From: Eublepharis macularius | Taxonomy: Eukaryota > Chordata > Lepidosauria > Squamata > Eublepharidae | Direction: 5' to 3' | Length of the DNA: 64,000 nt | Assembly: GCF_028583425.1 (NCBI RefSeq) | Contig: NC_072801.1 | Location: 14,094,001 to 14,158,000, forward strand | Part shown: positions 9,001-46,600 of the stretch, one piece after another | How the letters are laid out: each line of letters starts with the position of its first letter | Position numbering within the stretch: position 1 is the stretch's first letter | Notes under the pieces: generated by a model | What the model was told of the DNA's origin: nothing | Databases searched by the model: none | The model's input: the letters and a program-made list of their open reading frames with translations, nothing else | Translations under genes and position numbers: made by a program

Positions 9001-12000
9001 TAGGGCTTGGTAACTGGGAACATGGGTCTGGGTGAGGCTGACATGGCATCTGGGTAACTCGTAACAGCCAAGGTTCCCGACATTAATCTACGTTGGGTGG
9101 GAGCTCTTTCTGCATCTTCCGTGTCTTAGAATGGCAAGCTTTGAAAGTTAGGTTGCCTTGTGTAATATAGAAGTTGTGCTAGATAAAGCACCAGGGCCTC
9201 TATTTTTTCCCAACGAACTACTGAATGCTTGCACACGATTATGAAAAGCCATTTGATGGTCTAGGACCAGCAACCTGAATGGAAGCAGGGATTTCAGAAT
9301 CTGCCCAAGAGGCTGGATTCTGTCCAAAGTTGTCCCCTCCCCCTTCAATAAAGAAAAACTCCACCCTGGTTGGGGGGAGCAGAATTGGCTGACCCCAATA
9401 TTTTCTCCTGCAGCAGCAGACAGAGTGGCAGCGGTACTTGCGCCAGAGTTTGGAAGTTGTGGCCAAAGTTATGGAGCTTCTGCCAACCCGCGCTTTCTCT
9501 ACCCTGGTAAGCCAGTGCTGTCAGTGTTGAACCCAATACCTAGTTAAGAGCTGAGACCCTGGTATTTCAGGGGCCTGTGATGCCAGCTATAGCAGGCCAC
9601 CACCAACCAGTTATCAAGCTGCTTTGCCAGTTTCCGGGAGCAATGTGTGTGCAGCTCAAATGCTTCTCGACATTCAAAGTGCCTCCAGCTGGGACTGCCA
9701 TCAGGGGATTGGGAGGTTTCGCAAGCAGGGTCGATAAGATTCAGATCCATCAGGGTAGAGATTCTTACCCTAGCTTGGATTACTGGTTGGTTGCCATTGC
9801 ACCAGTTTAAGTTAGTTTTTTATCCCATTCTTCCTCCAAGAAGTTCAGAGCAGCATATATGGTTCTCCTCCTCCAGCGTACCCTCCCAACAGCCCTTTGA
9901 GGTAGGTTAAGCGTAGAGGAAGTGACTGCCCTAGGGTCTCCAAATGAGCTTCCCCTGCCCAACCAGTTGGCGCACTGCAATTCTGCTTCTGTGGAGCGTT
10001 TTTGGTGGAATGCACCTCCTGTTGCTGCATTCCCACAGAAGTCTTAAGGATTAGGCCCCTGTGCTCCCCTTCACAAGTGAACAACTTGGAGCGTGTGGGA
10101 CATGCAGCTTGACTGCCCCATGGCACCCTGGCAGAGATCTGAGGCCGTGCCTTTCAATTTAAACTCAAATCAGAAGACCCTTCCTGGCACATTTTTTCCC
10201 CTAATTATAGCGGCAAAGAAATGATGGGAAGTTCAGGATGGCACCAGGTAGCCCGCAAGAAGGTCGGGTGTCACTCATCCAGAATCAGCCTATGACAGCC
10301 CTGCAGTGCTCTCACTGGCCAATGGCAGTGACTTCTGGGCCGTTGTCAGAGGCATCTGATCCTTTTGCTGTGTGTCCTGTTTTGCTGCCCCGTTGCCAGG
10401 CTGGGCATTCTAAATGGCCTGGGCTTTTAGAAGGGGGACCGTCGAAGAGTCTTGTGTGGCCTGGTCACCTTTGGAGGTGGCGTTTCTTTTACATAATCTT
10501 CCAAACTTCCGCTTTCAGGCCATTCCTGCCACTTCTGCTAGTTAGTGGAACGGCCAAGTTTCTGAGCTCTGAATCAAATGTCCCCAGTCCAGACTTTGCC
10601 ACAAGCTCGCAAGGTGGCCTCCGGTATGCTGCTGTCCCTCTGCCTGCACCTCCATCATGATCTAGAAGGAGGGCTGGTACAGCAGTGTCCTAAAAAATTA
10701 AAAATGGCCAGCACCTCACAGATTCCGCCTACCTTGTTGATTACTGTGCTTAATATGTTTGAAGAGCTTGGAGGGAGCGCTCGTACGGACTGCAAAGGCA
10801 ACAGCTGATTGCTGTCTGTGAACAGCAATCCTTTGGGATCTAAGCAGCTCTACCAAGGTTCTCGCTTTGTGTCTGAGTGAACGCACCAGCGGTTCATTTG
10901 AGACTACTGCTTTATTTTCGGGTTTAGATCTTCATGCCTTGTTTTTCCCCCTCGTGGGATCTCAAAGCAGATTAGAGCATTCTCCTCCTCTCTTTTTTTT
11001 ATCCTCCCAGCAACCCTATGAGGTAGGTTAACTTGCAAGAGACTGATTGGCCCCAGGTCACCCAGCAAGTTTCCATGGCACGGTGGGGATTTCAGCCTGG
11101 ATCTCCAGATGGTGCTCTGGAAGGGGTCTCTGTCTCTTAGGAAATCGAGTTCCCCCAGGGCCCGTCCTGATTTTAGTGCTATGTTTAATTTGGCAGGCTG
11201 GCATAACATTTAGGAGGTGGCTAAATTACCGGGTTCTTGAACAGGAGAGAACCTTCAGTTCATCTTCGTTCTTCTGTGCCTCCACACATGGGGACTGCGC
11301 AGGCGCAGGCCAGCCGCCGGAGAATTTTCTAGAGCTTCCAAGGCTCCGAAGGGGCCGTCTGTCGCGCGCCTCAGCGACCGTTTTCCCGCCCAAACGGTCA
11401 CGTGATCCTACAGCGACCAACGGCCCCTTCCCTCAGTTCTCTTCTTGCCGCCGCTTGGAGAGAACGTGAGCTTCGTTGCTCTGTGCTTTTTTGTGCTTCG
11501 TGCTTTATTCTGACTGATTGCTTGGCTTTTGACTTCGGACTTCGTGACCTCGACTATTCTTCGGATCTCGTTTTGGACTTTGTTGTGGACTCGGTAATTT
11601 GACTCGGACTGTTTTTGACCTTCCTTTCGCGTGCCCCTGAAGATGGCCTCAAAGGCTCTCTTCAAGCATTGCCTCCAATGCCACACGAAAATGGCCAAGA
11701 CCGATGGCCATGAACTGTGCCTGTTCTGTTTGGGGGAGACCCATAATGTGACGGCCTGTAAAATTTGCCAGGGTTTCACCAGCAAGGCCCGACAGGAGCG
11801 CAAGGCCCGACTGAATTCCTCCCTGTGGCAGAAGGTCATGTCCGGAGGCGCTCCGTTGCCCTCCTCCAAGGCCGGCCCAAGCCCCTCTGCCGAACGGCAT
11901 TCCAGAGCTGGCTCAGTGGCCTCCGCGAGGTCGGGGTCGAAACCGCGTCCCCCGAGTACCTCGGCGTCGAGAGCGGCCTCTCCAGCGCAGGGACCGGTGC

Positions 12001-15000
12001 GGCCGCCCCGTAGCGCTTCATCTACCAGGTCGGATCCGAGACCTACGTCGGAACCGAGGATCCTGGTACCGAGTCCCCGGTCGGAACCGACGTCCGGATC
12101 GGTTCCGATGAAGCCTAAGAGGTCGAAGCCGAGGTCCCCTTCGAAGGTGAGGAGCGCGTCGGTTCCGAGGTCTTCTTCGGAACCAGCGAAGAAGAAGAAG
12201 AAGACCAAGCATCATCGGTCGCCGCGTCCCGCTCCTCAGGAGGAGGTCATCGTGCTTCCTCACACGCCTTCCCCTCACCTGGGCTCCCCGGAGCCAGAAG
12301 ACATCACCGTTCCTGTGCCGGATCCGATGGCCTTCGAGACGGTGCCCGCGGAATTCTCGTCGGGTCCGGAGCCGAGCCCGCACCGTCGGAGCCGACCATC
12401 GCTTCCCCTTCGGTCGCCGAGGCTGGAACCGAGCCCGTCTCCTCGTCGGAGCCGTCCGTCGCCTGCCCGTCCGTCTCCACCTCCGGTCGGTCGTGAGCGT
12501 CATGGTTCCGGGGACAGTGTCCGATCAGTCCGGTCCACTGCGTCCCGGCATCGGCAGGCTTCCTACCTCCCCTCGCCATACCGTTGCCAATGGGAGGGGG
12601 CACCTGCGGGCTTCTCCGTGTCGGAACCGAGGCCTTCGACATCGAGGTCGGCGTGGGCTCCCCCTCCGCTCCAGGTTCCGGAATCCCAGCTCGGTTCCGA
12701 TGAGGAGGATGTGGAGAGCTTTGGCGGCTACCAGTCGGAGTCCTGGTCCGAACCATCGCCAGCGGAGGAGCTAGTGCCATCTGCGGACTCCCCATTCGAG
12801 GACCTCCGCATCTACGCCGACCAGATGGCAAGGATGGCCAAGGCTCTCGAGATGGACATCTCTTCGGCAGTCCCCCAGACCAAGGACAAGCTCCTCAAGC
12901 GTATCTATGGGGATAATCCGGCGTACGTTGGCTTCCCCATGCTCGAGGGTATTGAGGAGATTGTGGAGAAGGTGTGGCAGGTGCCCTGTGATCAGCCTCC
13001 AACATCCAAGAGGATTGAGCAGCTCTACAAGATCAAGCAGGGTACCTGGCCGGCGCTGGTGAAACACCCTCCACCTTCCTCCTTGGTCACAGAGGAGTTC
13101 AACCCCAGGCGATCGGGTCACTCCTCGGTGCCTGCCGATAAGGAGGGCAAGAAGCTGGATGCCATGGGCAGGCGCCAGTACATTGTTTCTTCCCTGGGTC
13201 TGAGGATTGCCAACTATCAGACCATCATGGCAGGGTACCAGCTGTACCTCTGGGAGAAGTTGGCATCCTATACACGAGACCTCCCTCCTGAGCAGAAGGC
13301 TGTGGTGTCCCTGCTGCAGACAGAGGCTGTGAGGCTGTCTAAGCAGCAGATGAACGCTGGGAGCCACGCTGCTGACACTGCTGCTAGAGGTATGGCGTCG
13401 GCGGTGGTCCTCAGGCGCCACTCCTGGTTGCGGTCTACGGCCCTGTCCCAAGAGGTACGTTCCAGGGTGGAGAGCATGCCATTTGAGGGGGACTCGCTGT
13501 TCTCCAAATCGACCGACGAGACCCTGAAGAAAAAGAAGGAGGACCGGCAGACGGCGCGGTCTTTGGGTCTGGCTCCAGCGGACAAGCCCTCCTCCAGGTC
13601 ACGGTACGCTCCCAGGTCTGGCCCTTACCACTACCAGGGCAGATACCAACAGCAGCGGCCGGGCTACCATCAGTATCCTGCCTACCAGCAGCGGCCTTAC
13701 CCTCCCGCACAACAGCAGAGGAGGCGTCGGCCCTTCAAGCCTCGTCAGGCACAGCAACCGGCCCAGCAGAAAGACCAGCAGGGCGCCGGGAGGCAGTACT
13801 GACGGGTCGCGCCAGCCGTATCCCCGAACTTTTCGGACAGACTTAGTCCACTCCTCTCTGAGTGGGAGTCAATAACATCTGACTCATGGGTCTTAACTAT
13901 TGTTGAGCTGGGACACGGGCTGGAGTTCGTTGAGCTGCCTAGATGCAGTTCACCCCTGACAGCTGTCAATAACACTATGGCCGAGCTGGATGCGGAGATC
14001 GTGTCGCTCTTGGCCAAGGGTGCTGTGGAAGAATTGCCCTATGAGGACTCTGTAAAGGGTTTCTTCTCTAGGTTCTTCCTGGTCCCTAAGAAGGATGGGG
14101 GTTTACGTCCCATTTTAGATCTGAGGGGCCTTAATGCCTTCCTCAAGGTGACCAAGTTCCAAATGGTTACGTTGGCGGCGGTGATCGCCTTACTAAAGCA
14201 AGGGGATTGGTTTGCGGTTCTTGACTTAAAAGACGCATACTTTCACGTGGGCATACGGAAGGAGCACAGGAAGTACCTGAGTTTTGTTTACCGGCAAAGG
14301 GTTTTCCGGTATAAGGTGCTCCCCTTTGGCCTGTCCACTGCCCCACGAGTGTTCACTAAATGTGTGGCCCCTGTGGTTTCCTTCCTACGGGAAGAAGGCT
14401 GTACCATCTTTCCGTACCTCGATGACTGGCTCATCGTGGCTGAATCGGAGTCTAGGCTGGTGCAGGACATTGGCTTGGTACTTAGCACTTGCCAACGCCT
14501 GGGGCTCCTGGTGAACTTGGAGAAATCCAAGCTGGTGCCCAGCTGCAAGGTGTCCTACATTGGTGCGCTTTTAGACTCTGTGGAGGGTAAGGCCCTGCTC
14601 CCCTTGGAGAGGGCTCGGTCCCTAAGGGGTCTAGTGTCCATGTTTAAAAGGAACCGGTTCCAGTCTGTGCGCACTATCCAGTGCTTACTAGGGCATATGG
14701 CAGCGGCCACCTCTGTGGTGCCTTTCGCTAGGCTGCGTATGCGCCCTCTCCAGAACTGGTTTGTGCGGAGGTACGATGCTCTGCTGCACCCTCCGTCCCT
14801 CAAATTCTCTATCCCGAGGGTCATCCTCTCCTCCTTGGACTGGTGGCTGTCTGATGACAACTTGTTTAGAGGGACCCCTTTCGGGTATCAACACCATGAC
14901 ATCACGGTTACCACTGATGCCTCTCTGTTGGGATGGGGGGCTTACTGTGGTGATGTGTCGGTGCAAGATGTCTGGTCTGACAGGGAAAAGACCCTCCATA

Positions 15001-18000
15001 TCAATGTGCTTGAACTAAGGGCCATTCGTTTCGCACTTGTGTCTCTTACAGCACTGCTGAGAAATCGTCATGTCTTGGTGCAGACGGACAACACGACTGC
15101 CATGTACTACGTGAATCAGCAGGGGGGCACAGTGTCCATGGCCCTGTGCCGGGAAGCCACACTCACTTGGCAGTGGGCTATCAAGAACGGCGTGTCGCTC
15201 CGTGCTATACACGTGGCTGGGTCAGACAATGCCCGGGCAGATGCCCTCAGCAGGGCCCCGTTACTAGACCACGAGTGGGAACTGAACGGAGAGTGCGTTG
15301 GGCCGATCTTCCGGATGTGGGGTCATCCAGTGATAGACGTGTTCGCCACTGCGGCGACCACCAAGGCCCACACGTTCTGTTCCAGGGCAGGGAGCGACCC
15401 CCTCTCTATTGGGGATGCCTTCCAGTTTACGTGGACGCAGGGCTTGCACTACATGTTTCCTCCATTCCCCTTGATTCCCAGGGTCCTGTGCAAGATAGAG
15501 GAGGACGGGACGGACTGCATCCTGGTGGCCCCCTTCTGGCCACGGCAGGTTTGGTTCCCGAAGCTCCTGCGGATGTCCCAACGGACATATGTCAGTCTGC
15601 CCCCTCGGCAAGACCTTCTCCTGAACGGGAGCCTGGTCCACCACGATCCCAGGAAGCTGCACCTAACGGCTTGGCGGATCGTTCCTCCCCGATAGGCTTT
15701 ACTGACGAGGTACAGAGGGTCCTCCTGAATGCTCGTCGGCCATCCACTAGGCGCGCTTATGCGGCCAAGTGGCGCAGGTTTGAGCTCTGGGCACTTGCCA
15801 GAGGAGTGGTGCCTGACAACAGTCCCTTGGGGGTTGTGTTCGAGTATTTGTGCCACTTGCGTGGCCTGGGCTTGAAGGCTTCCTCCCTCAAGGTCCACCT
15901 GGCAGCGATTTCAGCTGCTCACACCCGAGTTGAGGGTGCTACGGTGTTTTCTCACCCACAATCCCGCCAGTTCCTTAAGGGCATGTACAATCTTTACCCA
16001 CCTGTGTCGGCGCCAGTGCCTCAGTGGTCACTGTCTTTGGTGCTCTCACGTCTCATGTTGCCTCCGTTTGAACCTATGGCTACATGCCCCTTGGATATGC
16101 TATCCTACAAGGTAGCATTCTTGGTGGCCGTCACGTCGGCTAGGAGGGTCAGTGAGCTGTCTGCACTGCGGTCTGACCCCCCTTTTCTTGTGTTTCATCC
16201 CAACAAGGTGGTCCTGCGTCCCTGCCTCGGGTTCCTGCCCAAGGTGGTGTCCGCCTTCCACCTCTCGCAGGATATCTCACTGCCTGCATTTTTTCCTCAA
16301 CCTTCCTCTAAGGGGGAAAAGGCCCTTCATTCCCTAGACTTGAAGAGGGCCCTAGCCTATTACCTGGATAGGACGAAGGAATTCCGCTCCTGTCCTCACC
16401 TGTTTGTATGTTTTGGGGCCAAGGACAAGGGTAACAGGGCTTCCTCACAGACCCTGTCTAGGTGGATTGTGACGGCCATTAGCAAGGCCTATTCCCTGGC
16501 AGGGGTGGCTTGCCCGCTCCATGTCAGAGCCCACTCCACGCGGTCCCAAGCATCCTCTTCGGCACTCCTCAGGGGGGTGCCCCTGGTTAACATTTGTAAA
16601 GCAGCCACATGGTCCTCTGCAGACACCTTTGTCAGGCATTACGCCGTTGATGTCAATGCGGAGCAGGATGTATCTGTGGCCAAGGCTGTCTTACACTCCC
16701 TTTTTTCCTGAGGGAGTTTTGGAATGACTTTCTTGGCGTACCTGCTGGGTACCCTTGGTGAAAGTGTGTATATATGTACCTGGGGGTGTGTATATATGTA
16801 AATATTGAATATTTATGTGTCCTTACACAGTTTTTTACATAGATGTATATATGCATATCTATTTATTGTTGTTCTTGTTTGTTCAATAAAATTGTGTTGG
16901 ACTTCACCCCCGCCTTCCTTATTGTGTGAAGCTTGGTACACTCCCATGTGTGGAGGCACAGAAGAACGAAGATGAAAACAGGGTTAACATACCTGTAACT
17001 TATGTTCATCGAGTTCTTCTGTGCTGACACACAACCCTCCCTCCTACCCCGCTGTGAACTCCAATGCACAATACTGTGATGGCTGTAACGGATATTGGTG
17101 TTTTTAAGGTGTTATGGCTGAAGTGTATTGGTCAAGCGGCGGCAAAGGAGAACTGAGGGAAGGGGCCGTTGGTCGCTGTAGGATCACGTGACCGTTTGGG
17201 CGGGAAAACGGTCGCTGAGGCGCGCGACAGACGGCCCCTTCGGAGCCTTGGAAGCTCTAGAAAATTCTCCGGCGGCTGGCCTGCGCCTGCGCAGTCCCCA
17301 TGTGTGTCAGCACAGAAGAACTCGATGAACATAAGTTACAGGTATGTTAACCCTGTTTTGTATTCTTTGCAACTGAAACTGTCGTGATCCCATTCCTCCT
17401 TTCCTCTTTCCCAGTTCCCAGTGCTCCAGGAAAACTTGGATGTCTATCTCGGACTACAACAGTTCATAGTAACGTCAGGGACAGGTAAGGGCAACATCTG
17501 TTGAGTGATGTCCAGTATACTCGGGGCTTTTTTTCTGGGGAAAGAGGTGGTGGAACTCAATGGGTTGCCCTGGGAGAAAATGGTCACATGGCTGGTGGCC
17601 CCGCCCCTTGATCTCCAGACAGAGGGGAGTTTAGATTGCTACAGCGGCGCGGAGGGCAATCTAAACTCCCCTCTGTCTGGAGATCAGGGGGCGGGGCCAC
17701 CAGCCATGTGACTATTTTCAAGAGGTTCCGGAACTCCGTTCCCCCGCGTTCCTGCTGAAAAAAAGCCCTGCGTATACTCATGCTGCAGTCTCTGTTGTTC
17801 ATGAGGAGGGCTGTTGCCTCTTGTTTCTGTTACGACTTTTAACGAAGTGTTTCCTTTTGTCTATTGGCACTGGGAGGTAAGGGGAAAGAAGTAGGAAAAT
17901 CCAATCGCTCCATGGATGACTATTGAAATATTTCTACCCGGCCTTTCCTTTTAGTTCAGAACAGCTTACAAGTGCACTGCTAAGCAGGTCTACTCAGAAG

Positions 18001-35688: not shown

Positions 35689-35970
35689 CGGGGCTTTTTT
35701 TCTGGGAAAAGAGGTGGTGGAACTCAGTGGGTTGCCAGCACAGGGGGCAACTCTTGGCAGGAGGTGGTGCCCCTGGTACCACATGCGCAAGCGCAAAGTG
35801 CGTGCACGCTCCCAGAACTGCACAATGACGTCACTTTGGGTCAGCAGCGTGGAGGGCAATCTCAACTCCCCTCTGCCTGAAGATCAGGGGGCGGGGCCAC
35901 CAGCCATGTGACCATTTTCAAGAGATTCCGGAACTCCTTTCCACCGCGTTCCAGCTGAAAAAAAGCCCTG
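35689..35970. mobile_element. hAT-type MITE, family A, copy 2
   Basis: Ends CGGGGCTTTTTTTC and GAAAAAAAGCCCTG, with a perfect 8-bp flanking duplication GTTTGAAT at 35681-35688 and 35971-35978. The right half shares GATCAGGGGGCGGGGCCACC with the other two copies. The left half contains a different middle (TGGTGCCCCTGGTACC and on), so family members vary inside. Non-coding. Confidence 0.85.
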
Positions 35971-36769
35971 GTTTGAATAATTCAGTACTCCATGGGATAG
36001 AGAGAAGGGGGAAAGTGAAAATAAAGGATCTTGTGATTCCTTCCTGTAGGCTTGGCCTGTGATTGTAGCGGCTCACCTTCCTAAGAGGATGGTGAACTGT
36101 CTTTAGGGTTTGTAGAAGGGTCTCAAATCATGCAAGGGACTGGTGTTTTTCAAGTGTCCATCAAATATACAAGTGATGGGAGGGCGGGAGTGGCTGGGTG
36201 TCTGTGTGAAAAAGAAGCTTGCTACCTTAGATTCAGGGAGGGACAGAGAAGACAAGGAAAAATCTACTGTGCGTTGTGTGAACTGAGGGCGGTGACATCA
36301 GATGGGAGGGGTAGTGCATCTGTTGTGCTGGAGAAGAGTCCCTCCCTGCCTCCACCTGGGCTCTAGTCACACATTTGTAAAGAAAGCAAATGATACACAA
36401 GTGTCATAAATCTCTGGTGCTCTGTACTCCCACTACCAAAGAAGTCGAACAGGTCAACCAACACCCTTGGAATTTCACTGCTGGGAGAAGTAGGGTTGGT
36501 GTAATAACATGTAAAGGGAACAGAGTCTTAAAGACAGGAGCCCAAACAGATCTAGATCTGCTTAATGCATTGTGGAGAGCAGGTGTTGGGGGGGGGGGGG
36601 GGGGGAAGCCTTCTATTCCTGCAGAAAGGATGCCACTGGCCCAGGCCACCAGTATATTGTGTAAGGCAACTTCACCCCTCCGTGTCCAAACCTGCTCTGC
36701 ACTGATGTTCCAAGCCCCTTCTTGTGTGAAATATGACTGTACGGATTCAGCGGCTGGGGCAGAAGCATC

Positions 36770-36880
36770 CTGGATCCCAGATCCTAGAGGGGTTTTGCCA
36801 TCTTCTGAGCTTGGAGCAGGGGTTGGAGCAGGACTTGCCTGCATTGTGCAGGGGGCTGGACTAGATGGCCCGTCCCAGAG
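36770..36880 (-). repeat. CR1-like tail fragment
   Basis: GCATTGTGCAGGGGGCTGG then ACTAGATGG is the reverse complement of the CR1 tail words seen at 31,500, preceded by a decayed stretch. A pure G-run of about 17 bases lies just upstream near 36,589-36,605. Confidence 0.5.
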
Positions 36881-37149
36881 AAGCCGGTTCCCTGTGGCTT
36901 CATCCAGAGGGCAAAACGGAGTGGAAGGTGCTGCTTGCCTCAAGGGAAGGGCCTCTGTGGCACATGGGCTCATGCCCAACTGGACCAGGGCCCAAATCGC
37001 CCAAATTGATGCCGTTCTCCATCCTTGGTTGGGCCCTTTGCCACTGAGCTCTTCTCCAGCGTTGCAGCTCTTGGGACGCCTGGGAGCTTCCTACCCGCAA
37101 ACGAACGTTCCCTTTTCCCGACTGAGGGCCTCACCCCTCCGGCTGCTGT

Positions 37150-37660
37150 CCCCGTTCAAGCCATTTTGTCCCGGGGAGAGCGGGAGACGTTGCCCGTCGC
37201 TCTTCCACTGCTGGCTGGGCGCGGGGGCGGGGGGCCTCTGGGGCGAGGTGCGCGCTCGGCAGCGGCCCTTGCAAGGGGCTCCGGCCTCCTCCCCTCGGCG
37301 GGAGCTGCCGCCGTCGATGCCCGGCGGGCCTCCTGCCCAGCAGAGGCGGGCCCGGCGGCGCCCACCCCGCGGCCTGTGGCCCGGCTGCCTGGGCAGCGCC
37401 GGGAGGGAGCGCGGGCGGGGCGGAGGGGCGGCCCGGCCCTGGCCCTCCTCCTCCTCGGCCGAGCTGCGCGCCGCCCCTTCGCGGCTATAAGTCCCGCCGG
37501 CCGGGCGCGCCTCCAGCCCAGCTGGGCAGCAGCGGGCGGGCCGGGCCGGCATGGGCTTCCTGCGGCGCTGCGTGGCGCGGAGCCTCTGGCAGGGGCAGCG
37601 GAGCCTGGGCGCGCTCGCCGCGGCCCCCCATCGCCACTACGGCGCCGGTGAGTGAGCCGC
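37150..37660 (+). promoter_or_regulatory. NME4: CpG-rich promoter block of NME4
   Basis: Very dense CG dinucleotides and G/C runs across the NME4 start, unlike the sequence on either side. CTATAAG at 37485-37491 sits about 60 bases before the start codon and could act as a TATA element. The CpG-island call is by eye. Confidence 0.55.
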
Positions 37661-40600
37661 CCCGCCGGTTGCCAGCCTCCAGGTAGTGGCTGGAGAGCTC
37701 CCGGAATTACAACTGCTCTCCAGGCCACAGAGAAAAGTTCACCTGGAGAAAAGGGCTACTTTTGGGGGTGGACTCTATGGAATTTTGCCATGCCAAGGCC
37801 TTTCCCCTCCCCAAACCCCACCTTCTCCAGGTTTCACCCCCCCCCCCAAAATCCCCAGGAATTTCCCAGCTTGGAGCTGGCAACCCCACGGTCCTGCTCC
37901 CTCCAGGGGGGAGGCTCCTTCTCCTGGGGCGCCCCAGTATTTGCATGGGGGGCGCTGGAAACCCGGGCCGGTGGGCAGCTTCTCACACAGCTCTCCCCAG
38001 GCGCTCTTTTTTGCTTTGACTTCATTTATACCCCACTGTTGTCTCCAACGGGCGCCCAAAGCAGCATACCTTCATCTCCTTCTATCCTTACAACAACCCT
38101 GTGAGGTAGGTTAGGATGAAAGTGCGTGACTTGTCCAGGTTGCCCAGCAAACTTCCGTGGCAGAGCAGGGGTTCGAACCCAGGTCTCCCAGATCCTAGTC
38201 TGACGCTCTAACCACTACACCACACTGGCTTTTGGAAGGAGGCATCAGTTGGTCAGTTGTTTGGATCACCTTGGCTTTTATCCAGGGCCACTTCATTGTC
38301 ACAGAGGGATATGTTGGCATACCTTTGGCTTGCACAGACTGCAAGAGTTTGACTGGTGCCCTTTCCGAGGGCAATTCTCTGCCTTTGCTTTCCTGACAAC
38401 ACAAGTTGGTGCTCTTTGGGAGATGTTCATATCCAAGAAGTTGTAGCTCTGAGAACTTTTTTTTTCTTCACTGATGGGGTGAGCCCCTTTGATCTGTCAG
38501 AATCTGTTGGGGAAGATGCCGCTGGCTGGGTGTGCAAGGAGAGGGGGTTGGAAGTTGTCTTCCTAGCTACCAATTTGTTAAGCCTGCGAAGCTTAATCGC
38601 TGTCCTTGGAGGTGATGCTAAACATTCCAGAGGCGTGGTCTGGGGGAGCCCAGTGACGCCTGGTGTGGGCTTTCGGGGACCACAGTTCTCTTTGTCAAAT
38701 GCAGCTGGCAGGGAGAGCTGTGGTTATCGAAGGCTTATACTACATAGGAATTGGATACTTTCACTGCTACAAACTAATACGGCAAACTGACTGCACACCA
38801 AAAGGAGATGTTTACATTTCCAAGCAAAGGAATGTTTTGATTGCCTCCACGCTAATTGCATTCTGTCCCCTTGTGATTTATGTCCCCTTCTTTCCTCTCT
38901 CTCTCTCTTCTCCCCTCCTCTTCTGTATCTGCCCAGTTTGGATCAGGCATCTGACGAAGAGAACTTGATTCTCGAAAGCTTATGCTACAATAAAATTGGT
39001 TAGTCTTAAAGGTGCTACTGGACTCTTTTTGATTCCAGGGGATGTCATTGCATCTGGATGAAATGTTAGAATGGGTTTAGCACAATGGCATCCCTTCAAA
39101 TATTCAGGTAGACACACAGCATCCCTGGGCATCTTTGCTTTTTTTTCTCTTGCTGGGGAAAATAGATGTTATCCCAGGTAGCGAGCATCCTCAGGTAACA
39201 CTCTCTCATGCCCCCAAGTAACAAAACCTCTGCTTCAGTTGGAGCAAGGGATGAATTGGGTTACACTCGCCTGCCGGACAGAGCTTGCTGATCCAATATA
39301 TAAGCTGTACCTCAACTGAGCTATAAAAATGTGAAGTATTAGTTCTCTGAACAAAAGATTTGGGGGAATGTGCAGAGCATCTTCTGACATTGTGGCGACA
39401 TATGGCAGTGAATTGGATCAAGCAGCGGCGCATGAGGGAAGGGGTCCTTGATCCTCCTCCCGCAGGCTGTTTTCCCCATATAAACAGCATACTCGATAAT
39501 TCATTTATTTACTTAGTTTAAATAATTATTTACTTAATGAGTGGATCTCGTACTCTAGAGGATTTATTTCATTTTATCCTTTTTTGCCCTTTATGTTCTG
39601 ACCCCAGAGCAAAGTTTCTGGTTGGATTTTTATCTGGTCTAAGCTTATACACAGACGCAGAGAAAATCTCATTTTTGCTTTTTGATGTTGACACGTACGT
39701 TTCATATAGTTTCACTTTTTGCCTTTGCTGCTATGAGGATAAAATCTAACGCAGCAAAGGAAGAGGGCGTTACCTGAACTTTCAGTTAACTTATTGATTG
39801 ATGGTTTTAATCGATATCTGTTTTAATAGAATTTTCCCCATGTTTTGGTAAATCTGTATTGTATATGGTTGTATTTTACGTAATTTTTATCTTATCTAAT
39901 GGGTTTTTTGTAACTTTGTGGCAGCCTATGGCTTCTGAACTGAATTTAATTTATATTCCACCTTTCTTCCAATGGGGACCTAAGGCAGCTTTTATCCCCA
40001 CAACAATCCTGTGAGGTAGGTTAAGCTGAGAGTATGTGACTGGGCCAAGGTGACCCAGCAAGCTTCCGTGGCAGAGTGGGGATTCGAACCTGGGTCTAAT
40101 GAGATCCGAATCTGACATTCCAACTGCCACACAATTCTGGCTCTAATGTTAATTTCCCTCTCATGGATGAAAAGATACTGGTCCAAATAGGACTTCCACT
40201 GTGGGGGGTGGGAGGATTGGAAAACAGCAATTTTTAGGGGCCCGTAGTGAAAAGAATTAAGCCTACCACCCTTTCCTTAAATTTTGCTTAAATTTTGAGT
40301 CCCTTGTAACATTTAATCTTTTTTTCAAAAAGCTCAGTGGATACTTTTATGTTCTACCTCAACTACTAACCTGAGCGTCAGAGTGAGATTCATCCACTCC
40401 TTTTTTTTTAAAAAAAGGTTGCAATCCACCCTCTCCCCAACTTTAGTGAAATCCCAGCCCATGTTACACATTTCCTTGTATCTCTTCCCTGCAGGCTGGT
40501 CCCTTGAATATCTTCTTCCCCTTTCCCACTGCACAGTCTCCAAGCTGTGGTTTGTCTGGGCATGTCTTTTATTCCACTTCCCTAAATTCCTAGGTATTGT

Positions 40601-43600: not shown

Positions 43601-46600
43601 ATTTCCCTTTTGGAGGAATTAACTGCAGTTTATGTTGGGAATCCATAAACGGACCAAGCGGAGGGCAAGGGGGGAGCATATTTGGATGGGGTTGCAGCTC
43701 TGGGAGAACAAGGTTTGCCCCTTTGCCCCTTGTGCTATTTCCCCACTAGAAATCGGGGTTTGGTGTTGCTATTTGCCCCAGAAGGGAAATAGATCGATCC
43801 CTGTCACTTGCCTGTAGTATTTACTAAAACGCAAGACACAGGCGTCCATTAAAAAAAGAGCAGGTCGTCTTACATTCACATTCGAGAGCCAGTTTGGTGT
43901 AGTGGTTAAGAGCATGGGACTCTAATCTGGAGAACTGGGTTTGATTCCCCACTCCTCCACTTGAAGCCAGCTGGGTGACCTTGGGTCAGTCACAGCTCTC
44001 TCAGAGCTCTCTCAGCCCCACCCACCTCACAGGGTGTTTGTTGTTGTAGAGGTAATAATGGCATACTTTGTAAACCGCTCTGAGTGGGTGATAAGTCATC
44101 CTGAAGGGCAGTATATAAATCAAATGTTATTATATTATATAGGATACAGTTATGTCCAATAATAATTTTTCTGTGTGTGCATAACATTTTAAGGGGGTCT
44201 TTCTTTGGAGTAAATATACTAGATCAAGGAGAGCTAGAAAAGGAAACCTCTAAGTAGAAAGGTTTTGCTTGCTTGATTTTTGTAAGAATGGAGGTTCCAT
44301 GCAAGTGTGTATGCCAACCAGAGCATACAAAGCTGCCTTATATTGAATCAGACCTTTGATCTATCAAGACAAATATTGTGTTCTCTGACCAGCAGCTGCT
44401 ATCCAGGGTCAAAGATAAGTGTCTTTCGTATCTTCTGCATGATCCTTTCATATAGCGATGCCAAGGACTGAACTTGGGGCCTTCTGCATCCAAAGCAGAC
44501 GCTCCCCCACAGGGCCACAGCCCCACCAAATTTGAGATTGATGTCACCAAATGACAACTGGAAGCTGGATTCTCATTTGCTCAATGATTTTCTCTTGTAA
44601 AGAAACTCGCCCCGGGCTGCGAACAAACCATTATGAATACAAGAAGAAAGGCATCAATCAGGAAAAAGGGCAGAAAAGAATTTGTTTGCTGACTGCTTAG
44701 AGGGACATAAACTATTTTTAAAAAAGAAGTCGCTTCAGATATTGAAAAGAGGGAGGCCAAAAATACAACCTGGTCTTACCCCACAAGTCAATGCTGTTAG
44801 GCAAACTCTGAGCCCAGATTCTGAAGTTTATGCAAGGAACTTGGATCCAAACACCCCCATCTCCTCTTCAGTCCCACACAGGAGCCCTTTCTGTGCCGGA
44901 CTGTACAAGGTCCTGTCCTTCACCCATGTTTCCTTGCACACCCCCAAAAGAGTAATGGTGTTCCGTGTATGCCGCCCTGAACTCTCTAGAAGAACAGTGT
45001 GCTAAAAATGTATTCAATAGATAGAAAAAGCTCCAAAGTGTCCCAAGCTTTGAGGAGGCTTTCGGGGTTCAAAAGAGGGCTTCCGGAAGGAAAGAAGAGT
45101 CCCCTTGTGGAAGTGACAGCTTCCTCACAATACATTCAACCCATATAAACATCAACGGAACTGGAGGCTGTCAAGGTTGACGGCTCAACGTACAGGTCTG
45201 GGCTTTCTGACGCTGGTGTAGAACACCCACGAACAAAACAGCCGTCTGCAGTTGAGTAACCTTGACCTGGAACCAGCCTGCGCTTCTGCAAATACTTCTT
45301 TATCTGTAGCCCTCTGCCGTGTTTGAACAGCAACTATCTGGCAGAAAATCTTGCTGAAATATGGATACAGCCGATAGGTTTCAGGATCTAAACTAGTAGT
45401 TGTCAGACTTTCTGCCTTTCCTGGCTTCAGAAAAGTACACGAAGTTCAGGGCACCAGACAGCACGGCTGTTTGACTTCAGAGCTGTTTGGGGCAAACAGC
45501 TGCATACTTTCTGACTTTGGGGGACAGTTCCTATTTTCTGATTCCTCTCCCTGCTAAATCCTTGTCCCGATTTTCTCCTTTTGGGGGAGACGCTGTTTTC
45601 ATTTCGAGTTGCTATCCATGCCATTTTTCAGGGTTCATCTTCCCAGTTCGTCTGTATGTTGAATCTCTCTCTTTTTTCCCCCTCTTGTTTAATTCAAAAG
45701 GGGGTGGGGGAGATTTTGCTTTTTTTAAAGGATGGGGAGAGAGAGAAAAAGATTTGGGTGGTTTGGAGCCAAATGGAGCCAGTCTGCGGGTTGCGATCCT
45801 CTCTGGTTCATAGCAAGGTGGAGCTGCTGCCCTGCGGTTCCTTTATTTAGCCATGGCCTTAATAGCAACAGCAGCTCCCGTACTTCCCCTTCCCTGAAGC
45901 AGGGAGAGGTACCCATCCTGGATCCCAATAAGCTGGCAGTCATTTCTCTTAATATTGGGCACATCCATGTTGTGGGTTGAAGGGCAGATATCTTCATATT
46001 TCTTCCCGGTGAAGATGTCTATGCCAACCAGATGCACTTTGGCATGCCCATGCTTGCCAGTCTTGGAGGTAGACATCTCCACAATCTTGCAGGGACGTCC
46101 TTTGAGCACCACAAAGCCATTTTTGCGGAGAGCGGAGCACTGCATGGGGAAGGTGGCGGAGGCACCGGCATCGCCGGTCTCGAAGTCTAGGTCATCAGCC
46201 ATGGTGGATCAGATGTTATGGGAAACTGCCACCCGCGAGCTTAACTGCCGCCGCCGCTGCCGCTGCCTGCTGCAACCCCTGTATGTTGAATCTCTGAATA
46301 ATGGATGCCTGTTGTCTCTGGTGTAGGGAAATGTATGTATGCAGGGCTTTTTTTTCAGCAGGAATGTGGTGGAACGGAGTTCCGGCACCTCTTGAAAATG
46401 GTCACATGGTCGGGTGCCCTGCTCCCTGATCTCCAGACAGAGGGGAGTTTAGATAGCCCAGTGGCATGGAGGGCAATCTAAACTCCCCTCTGTCTGGAGA
46501 TCAGGGGGCGGGGCCACCGGCCATGTGACCATTTTCGCCGAGGGCGATTTAAACTTTTAAAAACTCCCCCCTTGTTCCAGCTGACCCAAAGTGACGTCAT

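Follow-up and report, generated by a model that had tools for sequence, protein, structure and literature searches.

Is a whole-looking DIRS retrotransposon inside a host gene a relic that has kept its shape by chance, or a member of a lineage that still moves, and what could it do to the gene around it? These questions are raised by a 64,000-nucleotide stretch of the Eublepharis macularius genome (NC_072801.1, positions 14,094,001 to 14,158,000 of the forward strand; hereafter the window), where such an element lies between two exons of XPO6. Our data suggest, with a probability of roughly 0.85, that it is a DIRS1-like retrotransposon that inserted recently, is complete in structure and may be autonomous, and whose family is expanding now or was until very recently. 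This reading draws on a full anatomy, hundreds of copies at differing sites (mostly with TT cores, and with one clean empty site) and purifying selection between copies. The element is ordinary in kind and unusually fresh.

Structure of the element

The element has the inverted terminal repeats, the internal complementary region (ICR) matching both ends, the tyrosine recombinase (YR) and the reverse transcriptase/RNase H (RT/RH) that characterize DIRS1-like elements (Table 1). By the logic of the circle junction, TTCATC opens it at 11259 and CCCTGTT closes it at 17357, and a TT just past the right end (17358–17359) repeats the TT core at 11259–11260. The terminal repeats are inverted (11283–11441 against 17148–17306, identical at 159 of 159 positions), with the outer 24 bases divergent. 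Because the reverse complement of the ICR equals the right end (57 nt) plus the left end (34 nt), with 0 mismatches in 91 positions, these outer bases differ as the element itself encodes. Assignment to an Ngaro or PAT element was rejected: split direct repeats would be expected there, whereas here the repeats are inverted, an ICR is present and direct repeats are short (20–35 nt).

All three frames (gag, pol and YR) of the window copy are uninterrupted. The original prediction, made from the letters alone, had described a whole DIRS element with both ends, the internal region and three open frames, and its borders proved right to the base. The polyadenylation signal that it placed in the sense of XPO6 was likewise confirmed, at 16885; since this AATAAA precedes the ICR, an mRNA ending there would be without the ICR. 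A strong donor-like ACAG/GTATGT near the right end (17336–17357), the same in 21 of 21 aligned copies, is part of the right extension and so may simply be required for recombination.

Copies in the genome

A 1,001-bp query (window 15000–16000) was searched against the window's own assembly (2.24 Gb, 72 contigs), and near-identical copies, whose absence the original prediction had named as evidence against itself, were found. The 40 matches scored, out of 1,484 candidates, were all 99–100% identical to the query, the window included; 20 of the other 39 were fetched and aligned, giving with the window a set of 21 copies. Every fetched copy was full length (6,099 bases) and 97.7–99.85% identical, with all three frames open in 19 of the 20 as well as in the window (the recombinase being tested from 15698). 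The gag ATG, the UGA-CGG and the AATAAA were each present in 21 of 21 copies. The circle junction matched the ICR with 0 mismatches in 14 copies; two others had 1 and 3 mismatches, and five differed in length.

Pattern counts, which are free of the best-match choice behind the fetched copies, point to a large family. With its stop slot left free, the gag-pol junction pattern occurred 879 times genome-wide at up to 3 mismatches (reversed-pattern control, 0) and 219 times exactly; the 100 matches listed of the 879 were all exact. The FPYLDDWL motif of DIRS reverse transcriptases occurred 1,640 times (control, 0), and the LAP2alpha family gave 3,989 candidates, of which 150 were scored, all above the cut-off. 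The original claim that whole DIRS copies are uncommon thus fails for this genome, given 879 junctions and 20 full-length copies among 20 fetched. DIRS elements were previously reported to be abundant in Anolis and turtles (PMC3266345, PMC4495291).

Near-identical family copies also lie close together, about 10 kb apart at G000:C3:151165919 and 151176017 and about 24 kb apart at G000:C6:74506062 and 74529591, perhaps through local duplication or clustered insertion. Outside this genome, a pol match to a viral contig (L001) and one pattern match (L002) appeared chance-like on re-check, and no relatives came from scanning viral-contig proteins a second time or from one scan of genome contigs.

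Age, selection and mode of insertion

Among the 21 copies, the window copy carries 4 private substitutions in 6,099 positions (median per copy, 7) and differs from its closest relative at 9. At an assumed rate of 1e-9 substitutions per site and year, the XPO6 insertion would be less than 1 million years old. Ratios of nonsynonymous to synonymous polymorphism (pN/pS) between copies were 0.13 for both gag and pol, with 0.05 in the C part of gag, and 0.07 for the recombinase, indicating purifying selection on the frames between copies; copies derived from functional parents should show such low ratios. Judged from these sequences, the family represents a recent burst in this genome.

Could the burst instead be old, with the XPO6 copy whole-looking by chance? 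Junctions with 1–3 mismatches outnumber exact ones (879 in total versus 219 exact), so older or diverged copies exist. Such a fossil would nevertheless have to combine identical inverted repeats, a match between circle junction and ICR, only 4 private substitutions and pN/pS far below 1, and we consider this explanation very improbable.

Other observations count against the main reading. Because the copies fetched were those that matched best, young intact ones are over-represented; one of them (L021) has a frameshifted pol, though it is 98.5% identical, indicating that broken copies exist beside intact ones; and the terminal-junction match is imperfect in 7 of 21 copies. Near the start of the recombinase (15698–15982, its first 95 codons), and only there, selection is equivocal, with a pN/pS of 0.34 from 1 synonymous and 3 changing codons. 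Finally, 2 of the 4 private substitutions in the window copy alter an amino acid common to the other 20 copies, so this particular copy may not itself be competent.

The flanks differ among the 21 insertions. All of them open with TTCATC; 16 have a TT directly past the right end, and 13 have a G just before the left end. When the 21 joined flank pairs were compared with the fetched sequences, a spanning match was obtained for one: the copy L025 lies inside a repeat, and a paralogue of that repeat in L030 (71% identical) crosses the insertion point without gap or duplication. Together with the T-core ends, this empty site agrees with the published model, in which a circle recombines at a short core (PMC3266345). 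The 21 junctions and the empty paralogous site thus show the insertion at a short core without target-site duplication that is typical of DIRS1-like elements. At XPO6 itself, a search for an alternative haplotype found no empty allele, the left flank (10500–11258) being fully matched only by the window; the other 39 scored matches to this flank were short and 74–83% identical.

We propose that element RNA would be reverse transcribed, that the ICR would restore the ends and guide circle formation, and that the circle would then be inserted by the recombinase, with a short T core as the target.

Gag, pol and recombinase proteins

The gag frame matched the LAP2alpha Pfam family at 9e-5 (just below the Pfam cut-off) and the structure 2v0x at 1e-4. 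In pol, RVT_1 matched at 3e-25, above the cut-off, and RT_RNaseH at 1e-3, below it; the window pol is homologous to pol adjoining LAP2alpha gag at other loci of this genome. Beyond the RNase H match the pol frame stays open for about 190 codons, a stretch that contains an FPPF motif and gave no family-model match; we take this stretch, and presumably the motif with it, for the region that holds a methyltransferase-like domain in DIRS elements.

The recombinase matched Phage_integrase (6e-4) and Phage_int_SAM_1 (1e-3), both below the Pfam cut-off, as well as PHROG integrases (3e-4 and 1e-3), with no match among PDB sequences. A single-sequence fold (predicted local distance difference test, 39.8) was too poor and was not used. 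The R, H-x-x-R and Y motifs, which we take to be the catalytic residues, are readable as originally predicted and are retained in 21 of 21 copies.

Translation of pol and recombinase

A single UGA separates gag from pol, which share one frame, and UGA-CGG is a type II readthrough context in several RNA viruses (PMC3542737); in that type, CGG or CUA comes after the UGA, and an extended stem-loop lies 3' of it. All 219 junctions whose flanks match exactly carry the UGA (the count is still 219 when TGA is required in the slot). The 98 nt 3' of the UGA gave a fold z of -2.23, with 3 of 200 shuffles as good, and an extended stem is predicted to begin about 10 nt after the stop. Pol residues 13–46, which lie 5' of the first pol ATG (13977), were matched on their own at 18 of 20 distant LAP2alpha loci (4e-5 to 5e-4); the stretch before 13977 is therefore most likely coding. 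From these sequences we infer that pol is probably made by readthrough at UGA-CGG.

Other results speak against giving the readthrough evidence full weight. The constancy of the UGA has low power: copies have a median of only 7 private substitutions in 6,099 positions, at which less than 1 variant would be expected. Windows folding as well as or better than the junction window, itself counted in, numbered 16 of 167 at a length of 98 nt; at 140 nt they numbered 23 of 166, and a duplex test of the first stem arm found 181 of 264 positions as good; the predicted fold stability after the UGA is ordinary for this GC-rich element. In addition, the 18 distant loci come from few families and are not independent.

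Pol might otherwise start at the ATG at 13977, by reinitiation or internal entry. That ATG is conserved in 21 of 21 copies and lies 5' of the RT motifs, and the unexceptional fold after the UGA would suit such a start. The distant matches to residues 13–46, few though their families are, point the other way, as do the variable codons in 13803–13976, of which 5 are synonymous and 2 changing, and we regard a start at 13977 as unlikely. Readthrough, our preferred reading, would yield pol as a gag-pol fusion.

In the window copy, as in all 3 distant loci compared, the recombinase frame lies at -1 relative to pol, with no consistent ATG; none of the 21 copies has an ATG in this frame before 15983, and codon usage switches at about 15,600–15,700. 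We infer that translation probably enters this frame close to the pol end, either through a -1 shift or in some other way that needs no AUG. A classical -1 slippery heptamer was sought in the pol/YR overlap and rejected, one poor GGGGGGC standing at 15122 in the pol frame and none after it. A spliced recombinase mRNA (best donor, 12146, to best acceptor, 15482, in frame) was likewise dismissed as the family mechanism, as no more than 7 of 21 copies have the GT of that donor.

The gag-UGA-pol layout may be unreported: by title, the literature searched did not contain it, with Repbase and most subscription papers outside that search.

Table 1 Coordinates and traits of the element and the adjoining XPO6 exons (window positions)
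Feature	Position	Strand	Remarks
Whole DIRS1-like element, 6,099 bp	11259–17357	+	Ends, repeats, ICR, frames
Left inverted terminal repeat	11259–11441	+	11259–11282 divergent; 11283–11441 equals right repeat
gag, 719 aa	11643–13802	+	UGA stop; LAP2alpha-type region within residues 429–631
UGA-CGG	13800–13805	+	Gag stop, then pol in same frame; type II readthrough context
pol frame	13803–15695	+	Reverse transcriptase, RNase H, then further stretch; first ATG 13977
YR frame	15014–16711	+	-1 relative to pol; recombinase homology begins near 15698; no ATG 5' of 15983
AATAAA	16885–16890	+	Sole AATAAA on element sense strand (polyadenylation hexamer scan); 5' of ICR
ICR	16943–17033	+	Complement of predicted circle junction
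Right inverted terminal repeat and right extension	17148–17357	+	Right extension 17330–17357 (28 nt)
XPO6 exon 5' of element	9411–9506	+	Ends in phase 0; GT/AG
XPO6 exon 3' of element	17415–17484	+	GT/AG; phase 0; strong acceptor; 57 bp past last base of element

Comparison with known DIRS elements

The closest published likeness, by description rather than by sequence, is with AcDIRS1 and AcDIRS2 of Anolis carolinensis, DIRS1-like elements of 5,938 and 5,997 bp (against 6,099 here) that, as here, arose in bursts of few families (PMC3266345). Their terminal repeats have a divergent part of 26 and a conserved part of 136–140 (24 and 159 here), their right extensions measure 26–28 (28 here) and their ICRs 40–58 plus 39–60 (34 plus 57 here; PMC3266345). 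Xenopus DIRS-like families similarly combine a LAP2alpha gag, an RT/RH open reading frame (ORF), a YR ORF, inverted terminal repeats, an ICR and T-rich ends, but have TTT at both ends (PMC9210276), whereas our element has TT at the left and GTT/TT at the right.

Within this genome, other DIRS loci (L031–L050 and L051–L053) also carry a LAP2alpha gag, with pol about 32–39% identical over long segments. Their recombinase is about 39% identical, and in 3 of 3 loci it begins in the -1 frame immediately past the stop of pol. Their gag-pol arrangement differs: pol is +1 to gag in all 19 distant loci with both (17 of which have pol overlapping gag), whereas here it continues in frame after the UGA. 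L031 has no pol match and is hence outside the 19, which represent few families and are not independent. Elsewhere, a LAP2alpha gag match (G000:C6:44897293–44897883) falls within a 1,628-aa open frame, far above the other listed gag frames and perhaps gag and pol joined.

XPO6 and the insertion

Matches to a human XPO6 protein query numbered 22 (E 8e-7 or better), all on the + strand and in order; XPO6 residues 1–48 had no match in the window, and the XPO6 pieces had none among PDB sequences. The element accordingly lies inside XPO6 in the sense orientation, as first proposed, while the number then given to its intron (9) is not established, residues 1–48 being unmatched in the window. A literature search combining XPO6, DIRS and insertion found nothing.

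Despite an insertion 57 bp upstream, the next exon (17415–17484) is intact, as are its polypyrimidine tract and AG. Scored with a matrix, its acceptor (14.0) is the second highest of 21 exon starts, some of them approximate. Because exon, tract and acceptor are intact, most XPO6 transcripts would probably still splice normally; a minority may end at the element's AATAAA or splice into the gag or recombinase frame.

In mammals, the terminal LAP2alpha exons of TMPO and ZNF451 derive from the gag of a DIRS1-like insertion, which the authors infer supplied both acceptor and polyadenylation signal (PMC4495291). The element could conceivably be on its way to becoming an alternative last exon of XPO6 in the same manner. 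It shares with that precedent a LAP2alpha-type gag and its own AATAAA; it also lies in sense orientation, follows a phase-0 exon and offers several moderate acceptors in the gag frame (the best at 11871, 7.9) and one at 15482 in the recombinase frame (10.7, the best in sense). These scores nonetheless fall below the 14.0 of the intact XPO6 acceptor, and on the antisense strand the top score is higher still (17.2), while sites exceeding the XPO6 median are equally numerous (4 on each strand). As a young insertion it might moreover be an allele that is private or deleterious, whereas the TMPO and ZNF451 exons are old, domesticated, spliced and translated (PMC4495291). We consider ongoing exon capture at XPO6 quite improbable; the reading we prefer is a fresh insertion past which XPO6 probably splices.

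Just beyond the XPO6 exon lies a host foldback repeat (17576–17719), a near-perfect inverted repeat of 64 bp around a loop of 16 nt, with related copies at about 35842–35970 and 46338–46545. Overlapping G+C-rich open frames at 36381–38114, three of which were tested and had no Pfam matches, are probably not coding.

Significance

According to a 2017 review, the DIRS replication model still lacks full experimental proof (PMC5633606). With hundreds of copies, many of them near-identical, a family such as this one provides material for testing the circle, the TT core and the translation of pol and recombinase; the parts worth following are the gag-UGA-pol layout and the XPO6 position. Taken as a whole, our tentative picture, held at slightly less than even odds, is of a live amniote DIRS lineage with UGA-CGG gag-pol readthrough and a -1 recombinase, caught just after landing 57 bp from an XPO6 exon and showing the layout that has been suggested for the origin of mammalian LAP2alpha exons. 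That layout (sense orientation, LAP2alpha gag and own polyadenylation signal) is shared with the one proposed for the birth of the TMPO and ZNF451 exons (PMC4495291), and the early steps of exon capture can therefore be sought directly at XPO6. If the picture is true, a live lineage beside an XPO6 exon would be a natural test of how LAP2alpha-type exons arise.

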